From Hahella ganghwensis DSM 17046 (GTDB lineage Bacteria; Pseudomonadota; Gammaproteobacteria; Pseudomonadales; Oleiphilaceae), in the NCBI RefSeq assembly GCF_000376785.1, contig NZ_AQXX01000083.1, positions 1-42,216 of the forward strand: DNA of 42,216 nt, given 5' to 3'. The notes under the pieces are model-generated. The model ran no database searches. It was not told where the DNA came from and saw only the letters and a program-made list of their open reading frames with translations. Shown piece by piece: positions 54 through 24,546 of this stretch (positions are counted from its first letter, which is position 1; each line of letters starts with the position of its first letter). Position numbers and translations under genes: made by a program.

Positions 54-1814
54 TCAGACTCTCCCTAGTGTTGAAATTGAGGATAAAAATAGAGTTCTTT
101 TCTTTTCCTCATCTAACTGTGCTGAAACTTTTGTTACTAGTTCTTCCGCTTCAAGCGCCTTTTTTTTCTCGTGCTCTTTTGCTTTGCGTTCTTCTTCCGC
201 TTTTGCCCTTGCTTCTTCCTTGGCTCTACGTTCCTCGTCTGCTTGTTTTCTAGCAGCTTCTTCAGATCGACGTAGCTCATCAAAACGCTTTTCAGCGGCT
301 TCGATATTTTTAAGGAAAGTTTTGTCTTTTGATTTTTCCGCGATTGCTTTAAGGCTTCCGAGGGATTCTTCGAATTTTGACGATCTTTCGCTAAGGATGC
401 CTATAAGTTTTTGGCTGTAATAAAGTAGTTCAATTTCTTCATTATCTATTAATTTGGCTAAAGCAGAAGCAACCCTAGCCTTCGCAGGATCAGTCAATAA
501 ACGTGAAATATTTTCAGAAAGTCGATCCTCTTTATCAACGAATGTTACAGGAATAACGTATCGTTCCAGACGTTTCAGGCATAGATTTCGAAAACAAGAT
601 TGCAACTCATCCACAGCAGGGCTGTCTATAAGTCCGGTATTTCGACTAGATGCCTCCATAAAATGCTCATCAGAGCCGTAAACATCTAGCCTACCTATGA
701 CATCACGAGTGCCAAGGAATCTGGCATATCCTTGCTGCTTTCTTCGGTCCATCTTGAACCAATCATCTCCTTCTTCCCCTATGGGGAATACTCGAAAGTT
801 ATTGCGAAATAAAAAAACAGATCCAAACTGAACTGAAGGAACCCCCATACGACGAGCAAAAGTCATTTTTGCTGAAGTGTTTAGAAAAAATAGAAGGCAG
901 TGGAAATTCGAATCTTGTAGTAAAGGGTAGGTATTTGGCTCTCTAATTTTATAAACTACCTCGCCTCGGTCTGTTAGGGAGCTTTCTATTTGATTCGTGG
1001 TAGGGTCAATTTTTACCTCAATAAATGTCGTTTTTTCTTGAAGGGTAGTGAATATGAAATTCCCAACCTCTCCATTTGCTAAGTCATTGGGGGGTAAAAC
1101 TAATTCTTTCTCATCCGCACGCTTTTGCGCATCTTTGTCTGCCTGTTCCTCAGCAGGAGCATGAATGACTATCTTGAAGCCATCAGCGTCAGATCCGAAG
1201 GGGTTAATTAGCTTCGATAAAGCGGATTTTATACGACAAATCTTTTCTCTATTCCAGACTTGTCTTGTGTGCTTTATAGTTATTACTGTTCCAGAATTAA
1301 GCCTTGGCAACTGGTCTGGAATATCGAAACCTTTTGGATTGGAGATGTAGGTAACATTTACTTTATCAAATCGCTTTTGATGGTTTTTGTCAAAAAGAGA
1401 CCAGTCTATTGTTAGGTTATGTACAGGGTCTTGGAGCTCTGATTGATGACGTGTCTGTAATATTATGATTTTACCTAATCTGTCGGACGAAAAACGACCT
1501 ATTCCCTTACTTCCAGCGTAGTATTTTCGGTTCGCTATCTCTTCTCTGTAATTCTCAGAGTTCCCTTCTTTCTTTGATGAATATGCTACAAAGAGCCATT
1601 TTTTCTTGATGTCGTCATAGGTCATGCCTGTGCCATTATCTGCAATGATAATCTCATCATTTCCGAAAAAAATATCAACTTGGGGGGCTCTAGCGTCGAA
1701 TGAGTTTTTTACTAGCTCGAAGATTGCAACTTCATCATCTGTGATAAGTTCGCTTCCAAGTACGGTTTTTAGCCCGCTGCTGACATCAAAATGCAGAGGG
1801 GTTGGCGTGGTCAT
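54..1814 (-). CDS. GHKL-type ATPase, transposon cargo, possibly C-terminally truncated
   Basis: The 586-residue protein starts with a GHKL (Hsp90/MutL/histidine-kinase type) ATP-binding domain. The N box is ELVKNSFDA (E33, N37), the G1 box IADNGTGM (D59) and the G2 box AGSKGIGRFSS (around 100-110). A middle region of about 300 residues is followed by a highly charged coiled coil (about 490-575) rich in E, K, R and A. The protein stops right after RTLFLSSIST. Related large ATP-binding proteins, as I recall them, continue past such a motif into a histidine-kinase-like domain, so this may be a shortened form. The other frames below position 54 also carry stops. It is the first gene beyond the transposition module and so is likely cargo. 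A defence or stress role is inference only; specificity is unknown. Confidence 0.75.
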   Translation of the reverse strand: MTTPTPLHFDVSSGLKTVLGSELITDDEVAIFELVKNSFDARAPQVDIFFGNDEIIIADNGTGMTYDDIKKKWLFVAYSSKKEGNSENYREEIANRKYYAGSKGIGRFSSDRLGKIIILQTRHQSELQDPVHNLTIDWSLFDKNHQKRFDKVNVTYISNPKGFDIPDQLPRLNSGTVITIKHTRQVWNREKICRIKSALSKLINPFGSDADGFKIVIHAPAEEQADKDAQKRADEKELVLPPNDLANGEVGNFIFTTLQEKTTFIEVKIDPTTNQIESSLTDRGEVVYKIREPNTYPLLQDSNFHCLLFFLNTSAKMTFARRMGVPSVQFGSVFLFRNNFRVFPIGEEGDDWFKMDRRKQQGYARFLGTRDVIGRLDVYGSDEHFMEASSRNTGLIDSPAVDELQSCFRNLCLKRLERYVIPVTFVDKEDRLSENISRLLTDPAKARVASALAKLIDNEEIELLYYSQKLIGILSERSSKFEESLGSLKAIAEKSKDKTFLKNIEAAEKRFDELRRSEEAARKQADEERRAKEEARAKAEEERKAKEHEKKKALEAEELVTKVSAQLDEEKKRTLFLSSISTLGRV

Positions 1815-2005: not shown

Positions 2006-3511
2006 CTATGCTTGCGGAGGATGATTTCTCAGTAGTGAAAATGCTTGAGTTGCTATTGGTCTTAATGAAGGCGGTACCTCTATAGACTCGTGATCTGTTT
2101 TGATAAGCAGATCATTACCTGACGTGTACAGACGCCAAGTTGATAGGTCTATGCTGTTTAAAGGAAAGCCAAATGCTTTGGCAATTATGCTATGGAGGAC
2201 ATGAATTGGCGTATTTTCAACTCCTCGTTTTTCTACCTCAGCAAGCAGATTTTTCAGCTCTTTGATAGTACGAGGTTGTTTCTGGCCACTACTAGTAGAT
2301 TTCAGCTCTGATTTAGAGGGCATTGATACATCCCAGGATTTTATTTTTCGGCAGTAGGTGACGAATTTGTGTAGGGACGCACGTGAGCTGGAGTGTTTTT
2401 GAAGAAAACTCTTTAACAGCGTTTTCTTCCAGGGCTGGAGTGAGTCTAATGAGCCGTATTGGCAGAATTTTTCTGCAGCTCGTAAGTAGAGACGAATTGT
2501 CCTTGGCTGAATCTTGCTGTTCTTCAGCCACTCCGAATACTGTTTGAGAAGGGCTCCCCAGGGTTCCCGAGCATTAGATGCTAGCTTATTTCTTATAATG
2601 TCTTTTTCGCTTTGATCATGCTTAATCTGGTCTGGTATTTCTATTGAGAGTTTATTGAGCAGAAACTGGCTGGATAGCAGGTATTTTCTGAGTTCTGCTA
2701 CAGTGAAAGCTTTAAGTAACTCTTCATAGTTAATGGTATCAGTCGATGGAAAGCTCGCATCGAGCCTTTCGAAGAAGGTCTCGTGAATTATGAGTTTCCG
2801 GCGCAAGTTGGGATGGTTGCCCTGAGTTTCCAGCAGCCACTCTGAAAACTGGCTCAGTAGTTCTCTGGACCACTTGTGATTCAAGGTATTCTCATGAAGT
2901 GCTACCTCTTTTCTGAGTCTTCTTGCGTTGAGGCATACCAGGCATCGTGACCGACCAGTTCCTGATACGAGAATGCCACAATCAGGACAATTGTGTTGTG
3001 GGTTTGACACTGAGGAACAGTCCATACAAACTGGCTTATTTTCTGGAGTGTAAGTACCAACCTTTCTGTACTTTCGACAAATGATGCAGGTTTGGTGCGT
3101 AAACTTGTTTCTGCAGGAATCACAGATCTTCTCATTAATACCAAATTGCGGATGCCTTGAAAGTCTAGGCGTCAATTTGTTGCATAGGTGACAGTGTTCA
3201 GGTTTCTTAAAATAGGGTGTACAGGCAGGACATACTGCGGCGCCATTATTGGTCAACATCCCAGCCTTAGGTACAGGACGCTCACACCTAATACAAGTCC
3301 TTTTGGCAATTTTACACTTTCTGCAAATGGGCTCTTCATTTGAGTTCCTGTGGACTCGGTAGTTATTTCCGCACGTTGCGCAGTTTGTGGAGACGAAAAC
3401 CCGTGCGTAGCAGGAGGCGCAGTAGTCGAACCCTTTGTAGACACGATGGGCTTTTTGTATGCTTCTGCCGCACTCGTCGCAATACCTGCCATATTTTGCA
3501 TCAGTGCCCAT
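2006..3511 (-). CDS. tniE: TniE-like protein: zinc ribbons plus integrase-like DNA-binding region
   Basis: This 501-residue protein is the last gene of the transposition operon, and its start overlaps the tniQ stop by 11 bp. Residues 11-193 carry twelve CxxC pairs (CDEC, CASC, CATC, CRKC through CLVC), enough for six zinc ribbons. Residues about 215-290 and 318-392 both look like the helical core-binding domain of tyrosine recombinases and resemble each other (FSEWL...RRKLIIHETFFERL against YSEWLKNS...RTIRLYLRAAEKFC). The C-terminal 100 residues sit where a catalytic domain would be, but no R...HxxR...Y set is visible, so strand cleavage is unlikely. By position and size it matches tniE of Tn6022-like elements. 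A role in target or end recognition is inference. Confidence 0.7.
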   Translation of the reverse strand: MGTDAKYGRYCDECGRSIQKAHRVYKGFDYCASCYARVFVSTNCATCGNNYRVHRNSNEEPICRKCKIAKRTCIRCERPVPKAGMLTNNGAAVCPACTPYFKKPEHCHLCNKLTPRLSRHPQFGINEKICDSCRNKFTHQTCIICRKYRKVGTYTPENKPVCMDCSSVSNPQHNCPDCGILVSGTGRSRCLVCLNARRLRKEVALHENTLNHKWSRELLSQFSEWLLETQGNHPNLRRKLIIHETFFERLDASFPSTDTINYEELLKAFTVAELRKYLLSSQFLLNKLSIEIPDQIKHDQSEKDIIRNKLASNAREPWGALLKQYSEWLKNSKIQPRTIRLYLRAAEKFCQYGSLDSLQPWKKTLLKSFLQKHSSSRASLHKFVTYCRKIKSWDVSMPSKSELKSTSSGQKQPRTIKELKNLLAEVEKRGVENTPIHVLHSIIAKAFGFPLNSIDLSTWRLYTSGNDLLIKTDHESIEVPPSLRPIATQAFSLLRNHPPQA

Positions 3512-4583
3512 ATTTACCTGCCAGCTCCATTAGGATTGATGCTCTCTGGCTTCGCCATCCAGGAGGCTTTCTGCGTTGAAGAGATCTGAGTTCCTCCAAA
3601 GGGGACCTCGATCTTTTTATTCTTGTTCTGTGTTTACGTGAATAAATCGGAAGTCTTTTTATTTCTATGTCTATCCAGTTAGGAATAGATGAGTGATTCG
3701 AAAAAGGTTTTTGATCTAAACAGACTTGACGGGATAAATCTCTGAAAGATTGAGGCCATCCTTCTAATAGTGAGTCCATGAAAAGCAAGACTGTCATTCG
3801 CTCTGAAGTGTCAGAGAGCTCAATAGCGCCTACACCAGCGTCGTCTAATTGGCTGTATTTCGAGCAGCGTTTTTGTCTTAGGGCGCTAAGTAATATATGG
3901 GCTCCAGCAAGCACGTCCCTGCCAGGAATCTCTTGTCGTCCAATGTTTACTGGCAATCCATGCAGAGCTTTGAACAATTTATTTTGGAAATTGATCAGGC
4001 TATGCATTTGAGAGGTTTTACCAAGAAGAGATCCAGGTGCCCTATCCAATCTGAAATTACAATTATGGCAATTCAGTGTATGCATGTGATTTCGATGAGG
4101 AATGACTGGGGCTCGGCATTCTGGGCACCGATCTAGCAGGCCTAGTTGATGGGATTGGCATATTGTGACAAAGGATAGCCGCCAACTTTTTAGGAAGCCT
4201 GGTGATTCCTGGAGGCATTTAGGGCAGTATTGTAACCCAAAGCGCTTTCGATCACGGTGATACACGCCAATAGCGTTGATCCAGGGAGCAAATCCTTGGA
4301 TCGGGCTGTGCGCACTTCCTGTCAGGCATGTCGTTAGCTCATACTTTCTGAGCGTCATCTTCTCTACTGATTTGCAAGAAAGCGCCGAGAAATCAGAAAT
4401 CCTTTGAATAAGTGATTTTGGTGCGGAGCGGTCTATGTCTCTATTCCAAATAGCCGTTTTAGTGCCAAAATGGTGCGAGCAAAAGCTATATGCAGTAGTA
4501 CCATATTGGTGTGAGGTGCGCACCAAGAAAGAACTTAAGAGTTCGTTATCGATTTTATGAGGAAGGAAAGGCCAAGTCGGCAT
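3501..4583 (-). CDS. tniQ: TniQ-family target selector
   Basis: The roughly 360-residue protein opens with the typical TniQ sequence PTWPFLPHKIDNELLSSFLVR. It continues with YCPKC, CPEC and CHNC zinc ligands around residues 120-185, the usual TniQ zinc-finger layout. TniQ/TnsD proteins bind the target site and recruit the TnsC ATPase. The chosen ATG at 4583 lies two bases after the tnsC stop; an upstream in-frame ATG at 4613 would overlap tnsC and adds only ten non-conserved residues. It is shorter than Tn7 TnsD (about 500 residues) but carries more than the bare TniQ domain. As the only TniQ present it is the best candidate for recognising comM. Confidence 0.9.
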   Translation of the reverse strand: MPTWPFLPHKIDNELLSSFLVRTSHQYGTTAYSFCSHHFGTKTAIWNRDIDRSAPKSLIQRISDFSALSCKSVEKMTLRKYELTTCLTGSAHSPIQGFAPWINAIGVYHRDRKRFGLQYCPKCLQESPGFLKSWRLSFVTICQSHQLGLLDRCPECRAPVIPHRNHMHTLNCHNCNFRLDRAPGSLLGKTSQMHSLINFQNKLFKALHGLPVNIGRQEIPGRDVLAGAHILLSALRQKRCSKYSQLDDAGVGAIELSDTSERMTVLLFMDSLLEGWPQSFRDLSRQVCLDQKPFSNHSSIPNWIDIEIKRLPIYSRKHRTRIKRSRSPLEELRSLQRRKPPGWRSQRASILMELAGKYGH

Positions 4584-4585
4584 AG

Positions 4586-5473
4586 TCAAACTCTGCGAGC
4601 GACTTCTTCCCAATCACCGGGGCGAACCCAGTCAAGGTTATCCAAGAGTTTCGATGTAATCTTCTCTTGGCCTGTTTCAATGGCCTGAACGGCTGCAGCT
4701 TTTAAAAGCTTGACAGTACCTCCGATTGTATCCCCCATCATCCCATATAATTTGGGTGCTATTTCGCGTGAGGCTAAATTAGAAGGTTCGGCTAAAGGTA
4801 GTAACCTTTCATAACTGGCTAAGAATCTGAGGTACTCATGATTCAATTGCCATCGATCCAAGGCAGCGGGTTCAAAGCGAGACTTCATTTGAGGGTCAGA
4901 GTTCAACGCATTGATAGCTGTTTGAGTTCCAGCAGCAACAATTGATATTTTGAGGTCGTTGCTAAGCCCTTTTATTGCCGCAAGTAGATCTCCTGCAATT
5001 TTGCCAGCGTTGGTCAAATTGTTGAATTCGTCTATAGCCAGCACTCTCACTTCGGCGTATTGGAGAGTAGACTTTACTTCCCGCTTTTTGATTGGTGCTG
5101 GGTCTCTTTCTCTGTGTGATATGCCTAGGTTCCACAGAATAGTTGACCAGAACTCAGATTCGTCCGGAGTTTCTGGCATTTCTATACGTAAAATAGGGGC
5201 TATGGGCGTTCCACTTGGTGTGATTTGTATCGGGTGCCAGTGACAGAAACGTTCCAAGATTGAGCTCTTACCATTCCCGCTTCTGCCGACGATCAGCACA
5301 TTGGGCATCCGAAGGCTTTTGGGATGAGTCAGCAGTCGATTTAGCTGATTCAGTATTTGTGTTGCTCGTGTATACCCAATCCAACGGTCTGTTTTGCAGA
5401 AGGTCGCTCGTTCATTAACAGGCAGATCAAGCATTTCAATGACATCTGGGCTAAGGTGAGAAAATTTGCTCAT
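4586..5473 (-). CDS. tnsC: TnsC-like AAA+ transposition regulator
   Basis: The 295-residue protein has a Walker A motif GRSGNGKS (63-70) and a Walker B motif VLAIDEF (DE at about 148-149), as in TnsC, TniB and IstB AAA+ ATPases. TnsC oligomerises on DNA, links the TniQ-marked target to the TnsA/TnsB transposase and enforces target immunity. It is compact, like TniB, and much shorter than Tn7 TnsC (555 residues), so the long N- and C-terminal interaction segments of Tn7 TnsC are missing. Its ATG overlaps the tnsB stop in an ATGA, implying translational coupling. Confidence 0.92.
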   Translation of the reverse strand: MSKFSHLSPDVIEMLDLPVNERATFCKTDRWIGYTRATQILNQLNRLLTHPKSLRMPNVLIVGRSGNGKSSILERFCHWHPIQITPSGTPIAPILRIEMPETPDESEFWSTILWNLGISHRERDPAPIKKREVKSTLQYAEVRVLAIDEFNNLTNAGKIAGDLLAAIKGLSNDLKISIVAAGTQTAINALNSDPQMKSRFEPAALDRWQLNHEYLRFLASYERLLPLAEPSNLASREIAPKLYGMMGDTIGGTVKLLKAAAVQAIETGQEKITSKLLDNLDWVRPGDWEEVARRV

Positions 5474-7374
5474 CGGGTTAACAATACCTCGTCAAATGGC
5501 CTGACTGGTGTGGAAAACAGGTCGTCTTCAACTGAATTAGGGGCCATGGAGGGGGAACTTTTTGGCTCCGACTTGGATGGCAGCGTTTTGGGAGTAGGTT
5601 TTGGTTTTCGCGTAGCCTGTCTTCTAGCTGCCTTGGTTTTCTTTTGTGCCTCTTCTACATGGGCTCTCATACGCTCCAGTGCATCAAAAATCAAGTTCTC
5701 ATCAATATCTTTTCGGCCTTCATTCTTAAGCCTTGTAAGGACTTCATTCAACTCCCAAACACTCATTGCCGGGAAGCCAATATTTCGGTACGGGATGGCA
5801 ATATAACGGTTATCAGCGGGGTCAAAAAAATATACTTTGCTGATGTCTCTCGGATCGCGCCGAATTAGGAATTTGCGCTTTGCTTTAGGATTTTCTGGAT
5901 CTGTAGAGTTAATGTAGGGATCGAGAGAAGACTCATAATAAGTAATGTTGTCTATTTGAATGCCGTATTGCTGTACTGTTCTCTCAAAGAAGGGCATGAA
6001 GTCCAAGCGAATACGTAAGGGGTCTTCTGGAATTGGGAAGAGGCCTGTACCAAGTGTGTGTTCATCTCCCAAGACACCAAGCTCCCACTTTTTCCTTGGT
6101 GACATACCCAGTTGGTGGTGTAGGCGTTGATGATAAACATTTACTGTGAAATCGATAAGATATTTCTCTAACTCTGCCAAGGTTAGAGTGGCTTCTGATT
6201 CGGAGTTGTAACCCCGGCGCTGTTTGGGGTTAGAGAAAGTCGTGCCAGGTAATTTGCGAATTTCATTTGCCATCGTGCCCATTAGGCGCTCTACATGTCC
6301 GCCGAAATGGGGCAACTGCACTGGCCTCCATTGAAGGTCTATTGCGTAGTTCTCACAAGCCAATTGGAGAACCTTACCTCGGAATTCTTTTGCGTTGTCT
6401 GCATGGATGACATCTGGTTTTCCCCAAACGGGCCACTCGCCAGCGACACCTAGATCTGCTAGGTATTCTCGTTTGGGACACATCGCGTTTGCCATGCACA
6501 TGCCCACTGATGCCGCACTTGGCCTTTCAAATGTCAGGTATAGCCCAACAACCATTCGGCTAAAAACATCTATAGCGAGAGTCAGCCATGGCCTTCCAAT
6601 GGGTTGCCGATGAACTTCATCAACAAGAATGAGATCCGCTTCGGTGTGGTCGATTTGCACGATCGCCAAAGGATGATCTGCTCCAGGAAACTCTCCTTGG
6701 ATAGGCGCATAGCGATTTCGGGCGATATCCTTGAAGCCCCTTCGCCTGAGTTTATGTGCAGGATTTATCAAAGAAATTCTAGATCTGACAGTATTCGGGT
6801 GAGGAGGGGATATTTTTGCCAGACGACACCTTCTTAATACCTCTTCGGCGACATCTGTAGGGTTATGCCGCTGTTTGGTTAAATATAAATCTTCAATGGC
6901 TGACTCGATGACCTTCTCTTGCTCTGTTGTTAATAAGAAAGTTCCTTTCTTTCGGCCTCGCTTACTCGGTACTAATGCCGAAACGTGGCCGGCATCCTGA
7001 TAGAGCTTTAGCCATCGATACAATGTAGCTGCATGGATTTTGTGTTCTTGAGCGAGCCTTTCTACGTCGTCTCTTGATCTAATTGGGTTTGCCAGAAGAG
7101 GTTTGATTGCACGGAATCGGTCTTGCGCTTCTTCCCATTCTTCCTTGCTTAGCTGCCATAGCTCCCTTTCACTGGGCTGTGAAGTGTGCTCATTTGCTTC
7201 TGGGTCAATCGGGGTGACAGTTTCTATTCTGAGTCGTTGGGTCTCCTGGGTTTCCAGATTAACGGCAAGAATGCTGTCCAACGAAAGAAGGTGTGTTACT
7301 TGATATCTACTATCCCCAAAACTTACTAGCTGCCCTGGTTCTATCTTGAAAAAGTTTCTGGATATGCCGCTCAT
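5470..7374 (-). CDS. tnsB: TnsB-like DDE transposase
   Basis: The 634-residue protein has N-terminal helix-turn-helix DNA-binding regions (about 80-210), then an RNase H-fold integrase core. The DDE triad is visible as QIDHTEAD (D242), VIHADNAKEF (D326) and HFGGHVERL (E362). A Mu-transposase-type C-terminal region and a basic, proline- and lysine-rich tail (about 580-615) follow; in Tn7 the TnsB tail contacts TnsC. TnsB binds the repeats in both ends and joins the 3' ends to target DNA. It starts 4 bp after tnsA, so the two subunits of the heteromeric transposase are co-translated. Confidence 0.95.
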   Translation of the reverse strand: MSGISRNFFKIEPGQLVSFGDSRYQVTHLLSLDSILAVNLETQETQRLRIETVTPIDPEANEHTSQPSERELWQLSKEEWEEAQDRFRAIKPLLANPIRSRDDVERLAQEHKIHAATLYRWLKLYQDAGHVSALVPSKRGRKKGTFLLTTEQEKVIESAIEDLYLTKQRHNPTDVAEEVLRRCRLAKISPPHPNTVRSRISLINPAHKLRRRGFKDIARNRYAPIQGEFPGADHPLAIVQIDHTEADLILVDEVHRQPIGRPWLTLAIDVFSRMVVGLYLTFERPSAASVGMCMANAMCPKREYLADLGVAGEWPVWGKPDVIHADNAKEFRGKVLQLACENYAIDLQWRPVQLPHFGGHVERLMGTMANEIRKLPGTTFSNPKQRRGYNSESEATLTLAELEKYLIDFTVNVYHQRLHHQLGMSPRKKWELGVLGDEHTLGTGLFPIPEDPLRIRLDFMPFFERTVQQYGIQIDNITYYESSLDPYINSTDPENPKAKRKFLIRRDPRDISKVYFFDPADNRYIAIPYRNIGFPAMSVWELNEVLTRLKNEGRKDIDENLIFDALERMRAHVEEAQKKTKAARRQATRKPKPTPKTLPSKSEPKSSPSMAPNSVEDDLFSTPVRPFDEVLLTR

Positions 7375-7378
7375 AACT

Positions 7379-8044
7379 TTACTCTGCTAACCATATAGAG
7401 GATTTCATCGTGAGAGTGTTATGCAATGAAGCAAGGATTTCTCGCTCCGCAATCATTTTCCATAGGACAGGCAGAGCCTCCATTCGGCTGTCGTCTCTCC
7501 AATATGCCGCAGCTAATAGTGCTTGTGGGGTCGTCTTGCCCAAGGCTCTTAATGTATTCATTAGCTGTTGCTTGATGAGAGGATTCTCCGCCCGGTGCTG
7601 GTATTTGCGAAGAAACTTGGCGTTTTGAAGTAGTGGGGTTCTGATTTCCAATTCGGTCATGATCTTAAACCTCCATCCATGCGATTTGCAGTGCTTCACA
7701 GCTGCTTTAAAGCGAGGTCTAAGTTGATGCCAATCAGAGTGTAGTTCACTCCTGTGTTTGACTTCGTAGACGATGATCCTAGGTGAATCGCTGTTACATT
7801 GAAGCTCGGCTAAAACATCAGGAGTGTAACTCCGCATAGTCCCATTGAATTGGTATTCAAGAGTAAACGGTTGAACCTTAATTCCTAAAACGTTGGGACT
7901 AAAGTTCAAGCATATTAGCCAGTCCCTTTCTAGTGAGGATTCAAACTCAACAGCTCCTCCCTGTGAGAGGCTAACCTTGCCTGTAAGGCTGCGGCGATTG
8001 GTTCCAATCCTTCGAGCTGGTGCCCCACTAGCTAGTCGCGCCAT
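7379..8044 (-). CDS. tnsA: TnsA-like endonuclease
   Basis: The 221-residue protein matches the TnsA endonuclease fold. It has FESSLERD (E39), YTPDVL (D76) and YEVKHR (E94, K96), the expected acidic and lysine active-site residues, followed by a C-terminal helical domain. TnsA cuts the 5' ends of the transposon while TnsB cuts the 3' ends, giving true cut-and-paste transposition. It is the first gene of the operon, starting about 120 bp from the element's end, so its promoter must lie within or beside the TnsB-site repeats. That arrangement suggests transposase binding represses its own operon. Confidence 0.93.
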   Translation of the reverse strand: MARLASGAPARRIGTNRRSLTGKVSLSQGGAVEFESSLERDWLICLNFSPNVLGIKVQPFTLEYQFNGTMRSYTPDVLAELQCNSDSPRIIVYEVKHRSELHSDWHQLRPRFKAAVKHCKSHGWRFKIMTELEIRTPLLQNAKFLRKYQHRAENPLIKQQLMNTLRALGKTTPQALLAAAYWRDDSRMEALPVLWKMIAEREILASLHNTLTMKSSIWLAE

Positions 8045-8167
8045 TAGTTATATTCCTCAATCCAATCGCATAAATAGTTGTACTTTGGTCGCATAATATT
8101 ATGTGAATACTCGCTCAGAAACCCCTAAATGTAAACAGAACTGTCGCATAGTTAGATGGAATTCACA
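8045..8167. repeat. Transposon terminus with tandem TnsB-type repeats
   Basis: Read on the plus strand, TCGCATA occurs at 8066-8072, 8089-8095 and 8144-8150, and a weaker TCGCTCA at 8111-8117. The spacings of 23, 22 and 33 bp are what helically phased or overlapping transposase sites of about 22 bp would give. The outermost bases are TGTGAATTCC reading inward from 8167, the 5'-TGT end of Tn7-family elements. The next five bases outside, GTGGC (8168-8172), would be the target duplication; the matching copy is off-window. By Tn7 convention this is the right end. Confidence 0.75.
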
Positions 8168-8862
8168 GTGGCTCTAATCCCAGGCCGGGAGAAATCTCTC
8201 TTGCTCATCATGGTGTACTGTTTTTGGACGAACTTCCCGAGTTTGACCGAAAAGTGCTGGAAGTCCTCCGTGAACCGATGGAATCGGGCGAGATTGTCAT
8301 CTCGCGGGCCGCTCAACAAACCACTTTCCCGGCCAGCTTTCAGCTTGTAGCGGCCATGAATCCATGTCCATGTGGATATGCGGGGCATCCACAGATCGCC
8401 TGCCAATGTACTGAACAGCAGGTGCAGAGATATCGGCAGAAAATATCTGGTCCGTTGCTGGACAGGTTCGATCTTCATATCGAAGTACCTGCCATTGGAC
8501 TGCGGGAGCTTCAGATGCAAGGTGCTACGGATACCACTGAACAGGTTCGCACACGAGTCGAGCAGGCCAGAGGGGCTGCGGTGGAGCGTAGTGGTGCTGC
8601 CAATCAGTATTTGTCTGGAGGTGCACTTGAACAATTCTGTGCTTTGGAAGAAGCCGACAGGCTGATGCTGGAGCAGGCGCTGCAGAAACTGGGAATGTCC
8701 GCGAGAGCATATCACCGGGTACTGCGTGTTGCCCGTACTATTGCTGACTTGTCAGGGGTTGAGAAGATTAGCTCCGCCCATTTGCTGGAATCTTTGAGTT
8801 TTCGAGCCCTGGACCGACGACGTATGACTCAAGTGATAGGTAGCGGCGTAACAAGTAATTGA
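8168..8862 (+). pseudogene. comM: comM (yifB) Mg-chelatase-like ATPase, 3' fragment cut by transposon
   Basis: An open frame from 8170 reads GSNPRPGEISL, then VLFLDELPEF (Walker B), AAMNPCPCG (sensor 1 region), the arginine-finger region PLLDRFDLHIEV and the C-terminal Mg-chelatase domain, ending at 8862. Full ComM is about 500 residues; only the last 230 codons are here, without the N-terminal Lon-like domain and Walker A. ComM is a hexameric helicase that extends branch migration during natural transformation. The first ATG in the fragment (8224) would give a 212-residue piece lacking Walker A, so no ATPase activity is expected. This is insertional disruption, not slow decay: the remaining frame is intact. 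Confidence 0.92.
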
Positions 8863-21684: not shown

Positions 21685-22235
21685 TTACCAGGCGGGGGAA
21701 ACGAAGTTTTCCCCGGAAAACACGGATTGCACAAGAGCCAATATCCATATCGGGCAAGAGGCAGCCGGTCCCTTGTTCCCTGGACTAAATGTTCTGAGTC
21801 TCTTTATCGGGTTTACGGGAAACTGAAAGATATGATGAACAATTGGGAGCGATTGAATTGATATGCTGGGGAGGCGGGATACTGTGTCTGGGGCATCGTT
21901 AGTGTTCTCGTTCATGTTGTTATTTTAATGGGCGGAAAACGAATCCTAGCAGACCCAAAAGTAAAGCATTTTAGTAAAATGATAAATATCGAATAAAAAT
22001 GATCTAAAAACGAAAATGTATGATTTCGAATATGTTGATCATATAGAAAAGCAGCTAAGCGATCTGAAGGCTGTTTATTAGACGGTGTGCAAAGGAATGT
22101 TTCCGGAAAAGTGATTGAGCGGATCGTTAGTGGGTTTGAAATATTTCTGTCATGGAATGTGAGACAGGGTGTCATATTCCCTTGCTAATTTTGGCGTTCT
22201 CAAAGAAACGTCAACAAGAAGTGAAGGGGATAACA
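21685..22235. other. Non-coding stretch before the small secreted protein
   Basis: The frames here show no family resemblance. The 21930-22080 part is very AT-rich and likely contains the promoter of the gene at 22236. The rest may be the eroded N-terminal half of the AraC-type regulator, but no similarity survives that I can see. Confidence 0.4.
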
Positions 22236-22535
22236 ATGAACCTCCAAAGATCAATTCTTGCCGCAGCTGTCACTTTTGCGGCGTTGACCTCAAATGCACA
22301 GACCGGTGGATTCGGCCATACTAAGCAGGGGCAGAACCAGGATTCTTCAGACTGGTTGTCGGATCAGGCGTTACAGACATTTGCCCCATTCTTTGGCTAT
22401 TTCCACCGGGGTAAAACGATTTTTCCTGTGTTCCTAGAGAACACTTCCGAAGAAACCTCACAAGGACCTCATCGGGTGCTGGTGTACAGTCATCGAAAAG
22501 TATTCAATGCCGAAAAAAGGTATCTGAACCAATAA
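22236..22535 (+). CDS. Small secreted protein, unknown
   Basis: The 99-residue protein begins MNLQRSILAAAVTFAALTSNAQT, a clear signal peptide with cleavage after SNA. The mature part is about 78 residues, aromatic and polar (ALQTFAPFFGYFHRG, RVLVYSHRKVF), with no cysteine. The ATG at 22236 is chosen for the signal peptide and for AAGGGG just upstream. I do not recognise the family. It converges on the dynamin-like gene and shares a bidirectional terminator with it. Confidence 0.65.
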   Translation: MNLQRSILAAAVTFAALTSNAQTGGFGHTKQGQNQDSSDWLSDQALQTFAPFFGYFHRGKTIFPVFLENTSEETSQGPHRVLVYSHRKVFNAEKRYLNQ

Positions 22536-22561
22536 AAAAGCACCGCAATTGCGGTGCTTTT
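22536..22561. terminator. Bidirectional intrinsic terminator
   Basis: A perfect 26-bp palindrome with GCACCGCAA / TTGCGGTGC at its centre is flanked by A4 and T4. It lies between two converging genes and should terminate both strands. Confidence 0.9.
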
Positions 22562-22584
22562 ATGGTTTGGAGAAGAAGACCTGA

Positions 22585-24546
22585 CTACCCCAGCATGCCG
22601 GGAAGGTTGACGACCTTCTGTCTCAGCATTTGCGGAGGTGGTCGGCGCAATTTCCGCTGGATATTTTCCGCCTCTGTTACCTGGGCGTGAATTTCACCCA
22701 TCAACCCTTGCAACTTACGGGTTTGTGAGCGGGTATCCTTGGCGTTTGCCGCAAGCTCCTTCAGGCGCTTGATTTGATGTTCAAGCAACTGCTTTTGCTC
22801 AATTGTGTGCTGTAGGATTGGTAATAACGCTTCTTGTGGCCAGCGCTCAGTTTCAATTTCAATTTCTGAGTAAATTCTTTTGGCCTCACTGACCAGCGTG
22901 GAGAAAAAGCGTTTCACCACAATCGTCTGTTCGGTCATCAGGGTGCGAGGGTTACGCCTGAAACTCTCTGCCCGTTTTTTCAGATTATTCAATTCTCTGA
23001 TCTGACGGGTAATATTGAAGTTAATAGGGCTCAGGTGCCGGGATTTGGGATCACTGGAATAGCGCTCATAGATCGAACTAACCATTTTCTGAGCCAGACG
23101 GGCTTCATGATTCAGGTTGCTCAGGTCGTTCTCGATCGCCTGGAAGAAGCCTGCCATTGCACGCCCCATACCAATCGTCGTCCAGCTGTTAATCAACTCC
23201 TGGCGAGTCTGCTTGGCATGACCTTCAAAGTGCTCCAGGTCTACGAGGCGTTGAAGAATCATTGCCTGTGACTTCATTAGTCGACGACTGGAACGCAAGG
23301 TGAATAACTTCTTGTAGTAGAAGTTGTAGTCGTCCTGAGTTTTTTCCGTGAGGTTACGCAGAAAATCCGTGCTGACGCCTTTTTGCTCGCACTCTTCAAG
23401 CCTTTCTTCATAGTTCTGCAGGCGTCCCTGGAGAATCGCTTGACTGTTTTGCAGCATTCCCAGAACGTCGTTGACCAGGGTTTGCGTGATCAGGCGTTCC
23501 TTCTGGGCAAGAATCTGGTTGGAGAGCAGATCTTCCAGTGTATCCAGTTGGCTTCTCTGCAGACGTTCCTCATCGCCTTTGATGCGTCCAATCAGAGCCT
23601 GCTTGGCTGAGAGCAGTAATACGTCCTTGGGTTCCAGGCCCAGCTGTTCGGCTGTTTTCGCGCGGACTTGGGTGATTGCCTGCTGTGTGTGCTCCTCGCC
23701 TTGAATGTCATCCCAAAGGATGTCGATTTTATTGAGCACAGCAAAGCGCCCGGCACGGTGGTCGGCCTGGTCGGTAAATATGAAGTCTTTCCAGATTTCC
23801 ATATCACTGGCAGTGACGCCGGTGTCCACTCCGAGCATGAAGATAACGGCGTGGGCATTGGGAATCATGCTGACGGTTAATTCTGGTTCTGAACCCAGAG
23901 CATTAAGCCCAGGAGTGTCCAGAATACGCAGGCCTTGCTGCAGAAGAGGGTTTTCCAGGCTGATCAGGGCGTGTCGCCAGGCTGGAATGATAACCATGCC
24001 ACTGTTGACGGTATCACGTTCCAGGGATGAGGGGTCAAAGCCCAGAGCCCGCGCTTCTTCAAAAGGAACGGATTTGGTTTTCGCTACCTGGTCCAATGAT
24101 TTGCGCATGGCTTCAGGAGAACTCATATCAAGCGGGAATATGATCCAGTCATTTAATGACCGCTTGAGTTCTGCCAGAGATCTTTCTTCCTGCCGGGTTT
24201 CGATTGGCAATACTTTTAAGTAGCTGCCGCCGGCATGATCGTAGAAAAGTTCTGTTGGGCACATTGTGGTGCGGCCGGCTTGCGACGCCAGCATGCGTTG
24301 TCCGAACTCAGCAAAAAACAGGGCATTGATCAGCTCGGTTTTCCCACGGGAAAACTCACCGACAAATGCAATCGTCAGGGTATCTTCATGCAGCAGCTGA
24401 GTACTGCGCTGGAGCTTCAGTTCCAAGTCATCCGAGGACAACTGATTGGTACGAAGCCAGCTTTGATAGTGGGCAATCTCCCGGACAAGAGATTTTTTCC
24501 ACTGTTGGTAAGCTTCTACTTGATGACTTAATCCGCCGCCTTTCAT
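22585..24546 (-). CDS. Dynamin-like GTPase
   Basis: The roughly 653-residue protein has a dynamin-type GTPase domain with P-loop GEFSRGKTELINAL (about 63-76), switch residues GRTTMCPTEL, G3 motif DTPGLNAL and G4 motif NKID. Long helical regions (about 360-640) form the stalk. No clear transmembrane helix is seen, so membrane contact would be peripheral. Bacterial dynamins remodel or seal membranes, and some act in antiphage or stress responses. The start is ambiguous: ATG at 24546 is used, GTG at 24558 adds four residues. It lies where the metX-yggT order is interrupted. Confidence 0.88.
   Translation of the reverse strand: MKGGGLSHQVEAYQQWKKSLVREIAHYQSWLRTNQLSSDDLELKLQRSTQLLHEDTLTIAFVGEFSRGKTELINALFFAEFGQRMLASQAGRTTMCPTELFYDHAGGSYLKVLPIETRQEERSLAELKRSLNDWIIFPLDMSSPEAMRKSLDQVAKTKSVPFEEARALGFDPSSLERDTVNSGMVIIPAWRHALISLENPLLQQGLRILDTPGLNALGSEPELTVSMIPNAHAVIFMLGVDTGVTASDMEIWKDFIFTDQADHRAGRFAVLNKIDILWDDIQGEEHTQQAITQVRAKTAEQLGLEPKDVLLLSAKQALIGRIKGDEERLQRSQLDTLEDLLSNQILAQKERLITQTLVNDVLGMLQNSQAILQGRLQNYEERLEECEQKGVSTDFLRNLTEKTQDDYNFYYKKLFTLRSSRRLMKSQAMILQRLVDLEHFEGHAKQTRQELINSWTTIGMGRAMAGFFQAIENDLSNLNHEARLAQKMVSSIYERYSSDPKSRHLSPINFNITRQIRELNNLKKRAESFRRNPRTLMTEQTIVVKRFFSTLVSEAKRIYSEIEIETERWPQEALLPILQHTIEQKQLLEHQIKRLKELAANAKDTRSQTRKLQGLMGEIHAQVTEAENIQRKLRRPPPQMLRQKVVNLPGMLG

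Follow-up and report, generated by a model that had tools for sequence, protein, structure and literature searches.

The gene at positions 2006-3511 (minus strand) of the window, by which we mean the whole stretch of 42,216 nucleotides analysed here from contig NZ_AQXX01000083.1 of Hahella ganghwensis DSM 17046, encodes a protein of 501 aa that we identify, with a probability of about 0.93, as TnsF (orf3/tniE), the selector of the chromosomal target comM in a Tn6022-type Tn7-like transposon. The identification follows from synteny and from a domain architecture as described by Faure et al. (2023; PMC10293859), so the comM-selector role is already in print and the window protein is a new, diverged member. 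In the relevant passages of that paper, TnsF, earlier called orf3 or tniE, is named as the comM target selector of Tn6022-type transposons and is made of zinc fingers, two core-binding domains (CB1 and CB2) and a partial catalytic domain, the recombinase domain being inactivated. The same passages report that in AjTn6022 (i) removal of TnsF impairs transposition, (ii) TnsF pulls down TniQ, (iii) TnsF shifts comM DNA and (iv) both binding and transposition depend on 10 bp within the Walker B codons of comM, and that Tsy transposons carry an active TnsF-like recombinase. A table in a 2024 review also gives comM as the target of Tn6022, reached via TniQ and Orf3; neither orf3 nor tniE is mentioned where a survey published in 2021 (PMC8649781) treats the cargo of Tn7-like elements, as far as its passages go. 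The first-pass annotation had taken the product of this gene for a former tyrosine recombinase that now reads DNA as a subunit of a Tn7-like machine, which matches what these passages say of AjTn6022 TnsF, and of the roles that it listed (targeting factor, end-recognition factor or TnsE analogue) a targeting factor fits best and is the role already described in PMC10293859.

tnsF is the last gene of a run tnsA-tnsB-tnsC-tniQ-tnsF, of which the first four members were identified by Pfam. All lie on the minus strand: the tnsA endonuclease gene (7379-8044; PF08722, E 2.1e-17; PF08721, E 2.7e-07), tnsB, which encodes the DDE transposase (5470-7374; PF09299, E 7.2e-12), tnsC, which encodes an AAA ATPase of the TniB family (4586-5473; PF05621, E 9.1e-57), and tniQ (370 aa, 3501-4613; PF06527, E 4.3e-21), inside the 3' end of which tnsF starts, with an overlap of 11 bp. 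Upstream of tnsA, the transposon end (8059-8167, ending in ...TTCACA) contains three repeats of the TATGCGA type (8059-8073, 8082-8096 and 8137-8151); the pattern has five matches in the window against a shuffle mean of 1.48, and three of the five fall within this end. The end is followed directly by the pentanucleotide GTGGC (8168-8172) and by the 3' half of comM (229 aa, 8173-8862, plus strand). The 5' half of comM is found on another contig of the same genome (C80, match at 22052-22921), where a second copy of GTGGC (22914-22918) is followed by TGTGAATTC. With GTGGC at the edges of both halves, comM has been split by an element that ends in TGT/ACA and generated a 5-bp target-site duplication. 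In the numbering of an intact ComM (G004) the break falls at codons 285-287, and the duplication stops 42 bp before the Walker B codons (VLFLDELPEF, 8215-8244, plus strand), the region that AjTn6022 TnsF requires according to the passages of PMC10293859. The ends of the two contigs do not overlap exactly over as many as 11 bases; the known parts of the element total about 24.7 kb and its middle is unassembled.

The cargo of the element is possibly a defence or modification set. At 54-1814 (minus strand) lies a GHKL/HSP90-like ATPase gene (PF13589, E 3.9e-17), and PADLOC models named 'Type II restriction enzyme' match the ATPase part of its product (best E 8e-11). On C80 (L015, 14844-17693) there are ORFs whose products by eye resemble a DNA cytosine methyltransferase, a receiver-type protein and a histidine kinase.

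End recognition in Tn7-like elements is the role of TnsB, and the repeats upstream of tnsA are probably TnsB sites. That the 501-aa protein would itself recognize the transposon ends, or serve as an accessory factor aiding TnsB rather than as a target reader, appears extremely unlikely: its gene does lie within the operon, and a protein with zinc ribbons and helical domains could recognize DNA other than comM, but the AjTn6022 homologue is described in passages of PMC10293859 as binding comM DNA, with a need for the Walker B region, and our analysis found no support for the end-recognition option of the first-pass annotation. We thus retain a comM target selector as the preferred reading.

For this gene, a tblastn search gave 70 plasmid records with relatives, all below 60% identity, and an alignment query of genome contigs gave 40 related genomic loci; a single-sequence scan of the same genome contigs returned no relative, an alignment scan of viral contigs returned no relative and the phage collection contributed two records of about 3 kb. 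Most relatives have the same layout: all five genes are present in 37 of the 40 genomic loci, and the comM 3' half adjoins tnsA in 31. Among the nine loci with no comM match, four are cut short (L045, L055, L062 and L064) and five have more than 5 kb of sequence before tnsA (L037, L038, L040, L063 and L065). comM is likewise found in none of 12 loci from the plasmid collection, some of which have short flanks. These plasmid loci and the five roomy genomic ones indicate that the element is not always at comM. Three of the five, from Vreelandella (L037, L038 and L040), have flanks other than comM; their TnsF proteins are near-duplicates of that of the comM-inserted L031, with the elements at other sites, which is consistent with a second targeting route. 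Among 97 genomes around and including that of the window, two have a TnsF match, the window's own and G033.

The Xanthomonas plasmids L012 (52,592 bp) and L025 (52,591 bp) carry the same kind of element; L025 has tnsF as a single open frame, L012 as two separate pieces. A closed genome from the genus of the window's (G002:C1:6504824-6536369, loci L066 and L067) has its comM interrupted by some 31 kb of other DNA, with a serine-recombinase-like ORF at one edge (by eye); the break lies further 3' than that of the window's element, and G002 has no TnsF match.

The plasmid records and the five roomy loci without comM are also what a TnsE analogue directing insertion to conjugating plasmids or replication forks might leave behind. 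We nevertheless consider this very unlikely for the window protein, because 31 of the 40 genomic loci are in comM and because the element carries another gene, TnsE-like, at its far end, just within the C80-side end and reading inward; it may correspond to the tnsE that Tn6022-type transposons have on the opposite strand. Homologues of this gene occur in eight ORF sets of 42 loci searched (L012, L017, L027, L028, L029, L031, L044 and L048); its name comes from a sub-threshold TnsE_C match in two of seven homologues (best E 0.026), with none in the element's own copy, and its product has no PDB sequence match below E 0.5 and no NCBIfam match. The TnsF and TnsE-like profiles are unrelated (HHalign E 0.6), and TnsE_C is not found for TnsF among matches up to E 1. 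The TnsE-analogue option of the first-pass annotation is thus a bad fit, and we return to TnsF as the comM selector.

The protein begins with an array of putative zinc ribbons (residues 11-193; 2933-3481, minus strand). It contains exactly the 12 CxxC pairs counted earlier, starting at residues 11, 31, 44, 63, 73, 94, 107, 130, 142, 162, 175 and 190, whereas 2,000 shuffled versions of the protein averaged 1.26 pairs and never had more than 5. All 24 cysteines of the array are invariant across the 10 sequences of a first alignment (A1). In a second alignment (A2: the window and 25 of the 40 loci, after omission of 11 near-duplicates, three short loci and one without an ORF), 23 of the 24 are invariant and C11 is kept in at least 90%. 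LIM- and GATA-type proteins are among the weak structural matches of the protein. In two AlphaFold models the array is followed by a first core-binding-like helical domain, CB1 in the terms of PMC10293859 (about residues 208-312; 2576-2890, minus strand), a second one, CB2 (about residues 313-405; 2297-2575, minus strand), and a partial catalytic domain, pCAT, made of helices and beta strands without catalytic residues (about residues 415-496; 2024-2269, minus strand), all borders being set here. Mean pLDDT values of 88.3 and 87.3 with pTM values of 0.57 and 0.63 indicate that the domains are better defined than their mutual arrangement. Neither Pfam nor PADLOC names the window protein, and the TniQ domain PF06527, present in its neighbour TniQ, is not among its matches up to E 1.

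The first-pass annotation had also called the two core-binding-like domains mutually similar. This holds for the window sequence, in which none of 200 shuffles reached the score of CB1 against CB2, and the models show a comparable helix order in both halves (by eye). It does not extend to the family: among 25 relatives the similarity is found only in L045, and weakly (3 of 200 shuffles), the other 24 of the 26 rows showing none; for the family profile it is not above chance (68 of 150 shuffles equally good); and HHalign aligned only six columns of CB1 and CB2 (E 0.084, against 0.13-0.72 for eight shuffles). The claim at the level of the family therefore depends on the structural claim in the literature.

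Behind the array lies a helical region that appears distantly similar to the core-binding domains of tyrosine recombinases, followed by what is probably a stub of a catalytic domain. A profile of residues 198-501 (A3, 26 sequences) matched 30 tyrosine recombinases with an HHalign E of 0.00043 and a probability of 34%, HHalign probabilities for the recombinase matches spanning 34-50%. As controls, 20 of 20 column shuffles gave E 0.13 or worse, reversed profiles gave 0.47 and 0.52, and the TnsE-like proteins gave 0.36. An HHalign match to the recombinases begins at residue 378, so that the last helices of CB2 fall within it, and ends at position 184 of 320 columns. In Foldseek searches with the domain model, IntI, Cre or XerA occupied seven of the best 11 PDB rows (best E 0.33). 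With the whole protein LIM-type zinc proteins came first, IntI, Cre and XerA lower, and GATA-type proteins were among the weak matches, while the best four rows against viral structures comprised two named integrases and two nameless proteins. Taken singly, the recombinase matches are weak, and no structural match of the window protein to PDB or viral rows was below E 0.001. Pfam gave no recombinase domain among the families listed for 26 TnsF members, and NCBIfam gave only a far sub-threshold XerA match (residues 324-427, E 0.51). A PDB sequence search with A1 had nothing below E 0.02, and zinc-finger chains were on top.

The catalytic set of tyrosine recombinases is R-K-HxxR-H/W-Y. It is absent from the window protein, as the first-pass annotation had held for the C-terminal region, and no full RHRY set was found by alignment. 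HHalign places P450 (codon 2162-2164, minus strand) opposite the first catalytic arginine (Arg I) of the recombinases, and the chain stops before the regions of box II and of the tyrosine. A still active tyrosine recombinase, e.g. one that resolves cointegrates by means of an atypical active site, would account for the distant recombinase similarity found by Foldseek and HHalign, but the proline at Arg I and the early end of the chain argue strongly against it, as does the lack of any readable remnant of a lost catalytic end in the three frames behind the tnsF stop (by eye); we give this possibility almost no credence and keep to a DNA-reading TnsF.

In our trees the window protein shares a six-row branch (support 95/81 and 100/100) with sequences from Lysobacter, Massilia and a Xanthomonas plasmid and with two from Acidovorax, whereas 26 rows, Acinetobacter and Halomonas among them, fall outside it; the trees had 33 and 32 rows with at most one Tsy-like row as outgroup, flagged long branches, AjTnsF left out and an unsettled root. 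Identity of the window TnsF is 26-42% to the members of its branch and 22-27% to the four Acinetobacter proteins of A1. The Acidovorax members of the branch (L028, 9983-11578; L017, 4586-6178) retain the catalytic domain almost as far as box II, a longer stretch than the other rows of A1 and A2, and they alone have an arginine at the Arg I column (L028 among the 26 sequences of A2, L017 among the 10 of A1). With an L028-led profile the alignment to the recombinases extends further, reaching position 226 of 298 (E 2e-5, probability 77%). Judged by sequence, these proteins are possible intermediates between a recombinase and a DNA reader, and their arginine and additional catalytic domain hint at a stepwise decay. 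If the branch holds, truncated forms on either side of the split, together with the longer Acidovorax form, would suggest that the catalytic end was lost more than once. It is tempting to speculate, though we regard it as a tentative scenario with the odds somewhat against it, that the window protein stands for a deep TnsF branch whose recombinase degenerated stepwise, separately from the Acinetobacter/Halomonas branch, after a Tn7-like ancestor took over a nearly whole recombinase of which the catalytic end was lost repeatedly. The words Acidovorax and Xanthomonas are absent from the main text of PMC10293859, and its tree may include the Acidovorax forms.

A working model may be proposed largely by analogy with the AjTn6022 homologue. 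In it, TnsF would recognize comM near the Walker B codons through its zinc-ribbon array together with its core-binding-like domains, which may also bend the DNA there. TnsF would also bind TniQ, TniQ would recruit the TnsC ATPase, and TnsC would bring in TnsA and TnsB bound at the transposon ends. The outcome would be an insertion upstream of the Walker B codons with a 5-bp duplication. The same analogy suggests that tnsF would be needed for transposition of the Hahella element. The window protein extends a tested but sparsely sampled class of target selectors by a deep branch, and its element keeps both comM halves and the duplication. As this branch contains apparent intermediates from recombinase to pure DNA reader, it would become testable how Tn7-like elements came to adopt a recombinase.

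Compared with known systems, the closest counterpart is TnsF of Acinetobacter johnsonii Tn6022, as far as the passages of PMC10293859 describe it. Both genes follow tniQ and encode proteins of similar length (498 aa there, 501 aa here), both proteins have zinc fingers (in the first 199 aa in Tn6022; putative here), a core-binding-like region and a partial catalytic domain (both probable here), and both elements insert in comM upstream of the Walker B codons. They differ in that the window protein belongs to a branch apart from Acinetobacter, with 22-27% identity to the four Acinetobacter proteins aligned in A1. With IntI (2a3v), Cre and XerA, the window protein shares a weak fold and profile similarity that begins in CB2 and continues into the first part of the catalytic domain; unlike them, it has no catalytic residues, an extra zinc array and probably a second core-binding domain.

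A possible example of the Tsy TnsF-like proteins is found on a Variovorax plasmid (L021, 5342-8728), where a tyrosine recombinase is paired, in Tsy-like fashion, with a TnsF-like protein in a 15-kb locus without a comM match. The latter is homologous to the window protein in its zinc array and core-binding region (27% over residues 31-445), but differs from it by an extended C-terminal region containing, by eye, a candidate tyrosine, by its neighbouring tyrosine recombinase (PF00589, E 8.5e-17) and by a locus without matches to tnsA, tnsB, tnsC, tniQ or comM. Since neither Pfam nor NCBIfam finds a recombinase domain in it, and since the match of an L021-led profile to the recombinases is limited to 52 core-binding columns (E 0.0015), it is a possible, unproven active relative.

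In TnsD of Tn7, finally, a TniQ core and the DNA reader are combined in one protein. The window protein would be like TnsD in selecting a chromosomal target via the TniQ/TnsC route, a comparison also made in the passages of PMC10293859, and unlike it in that the reader is here a separate protein of probable recombinase origin.
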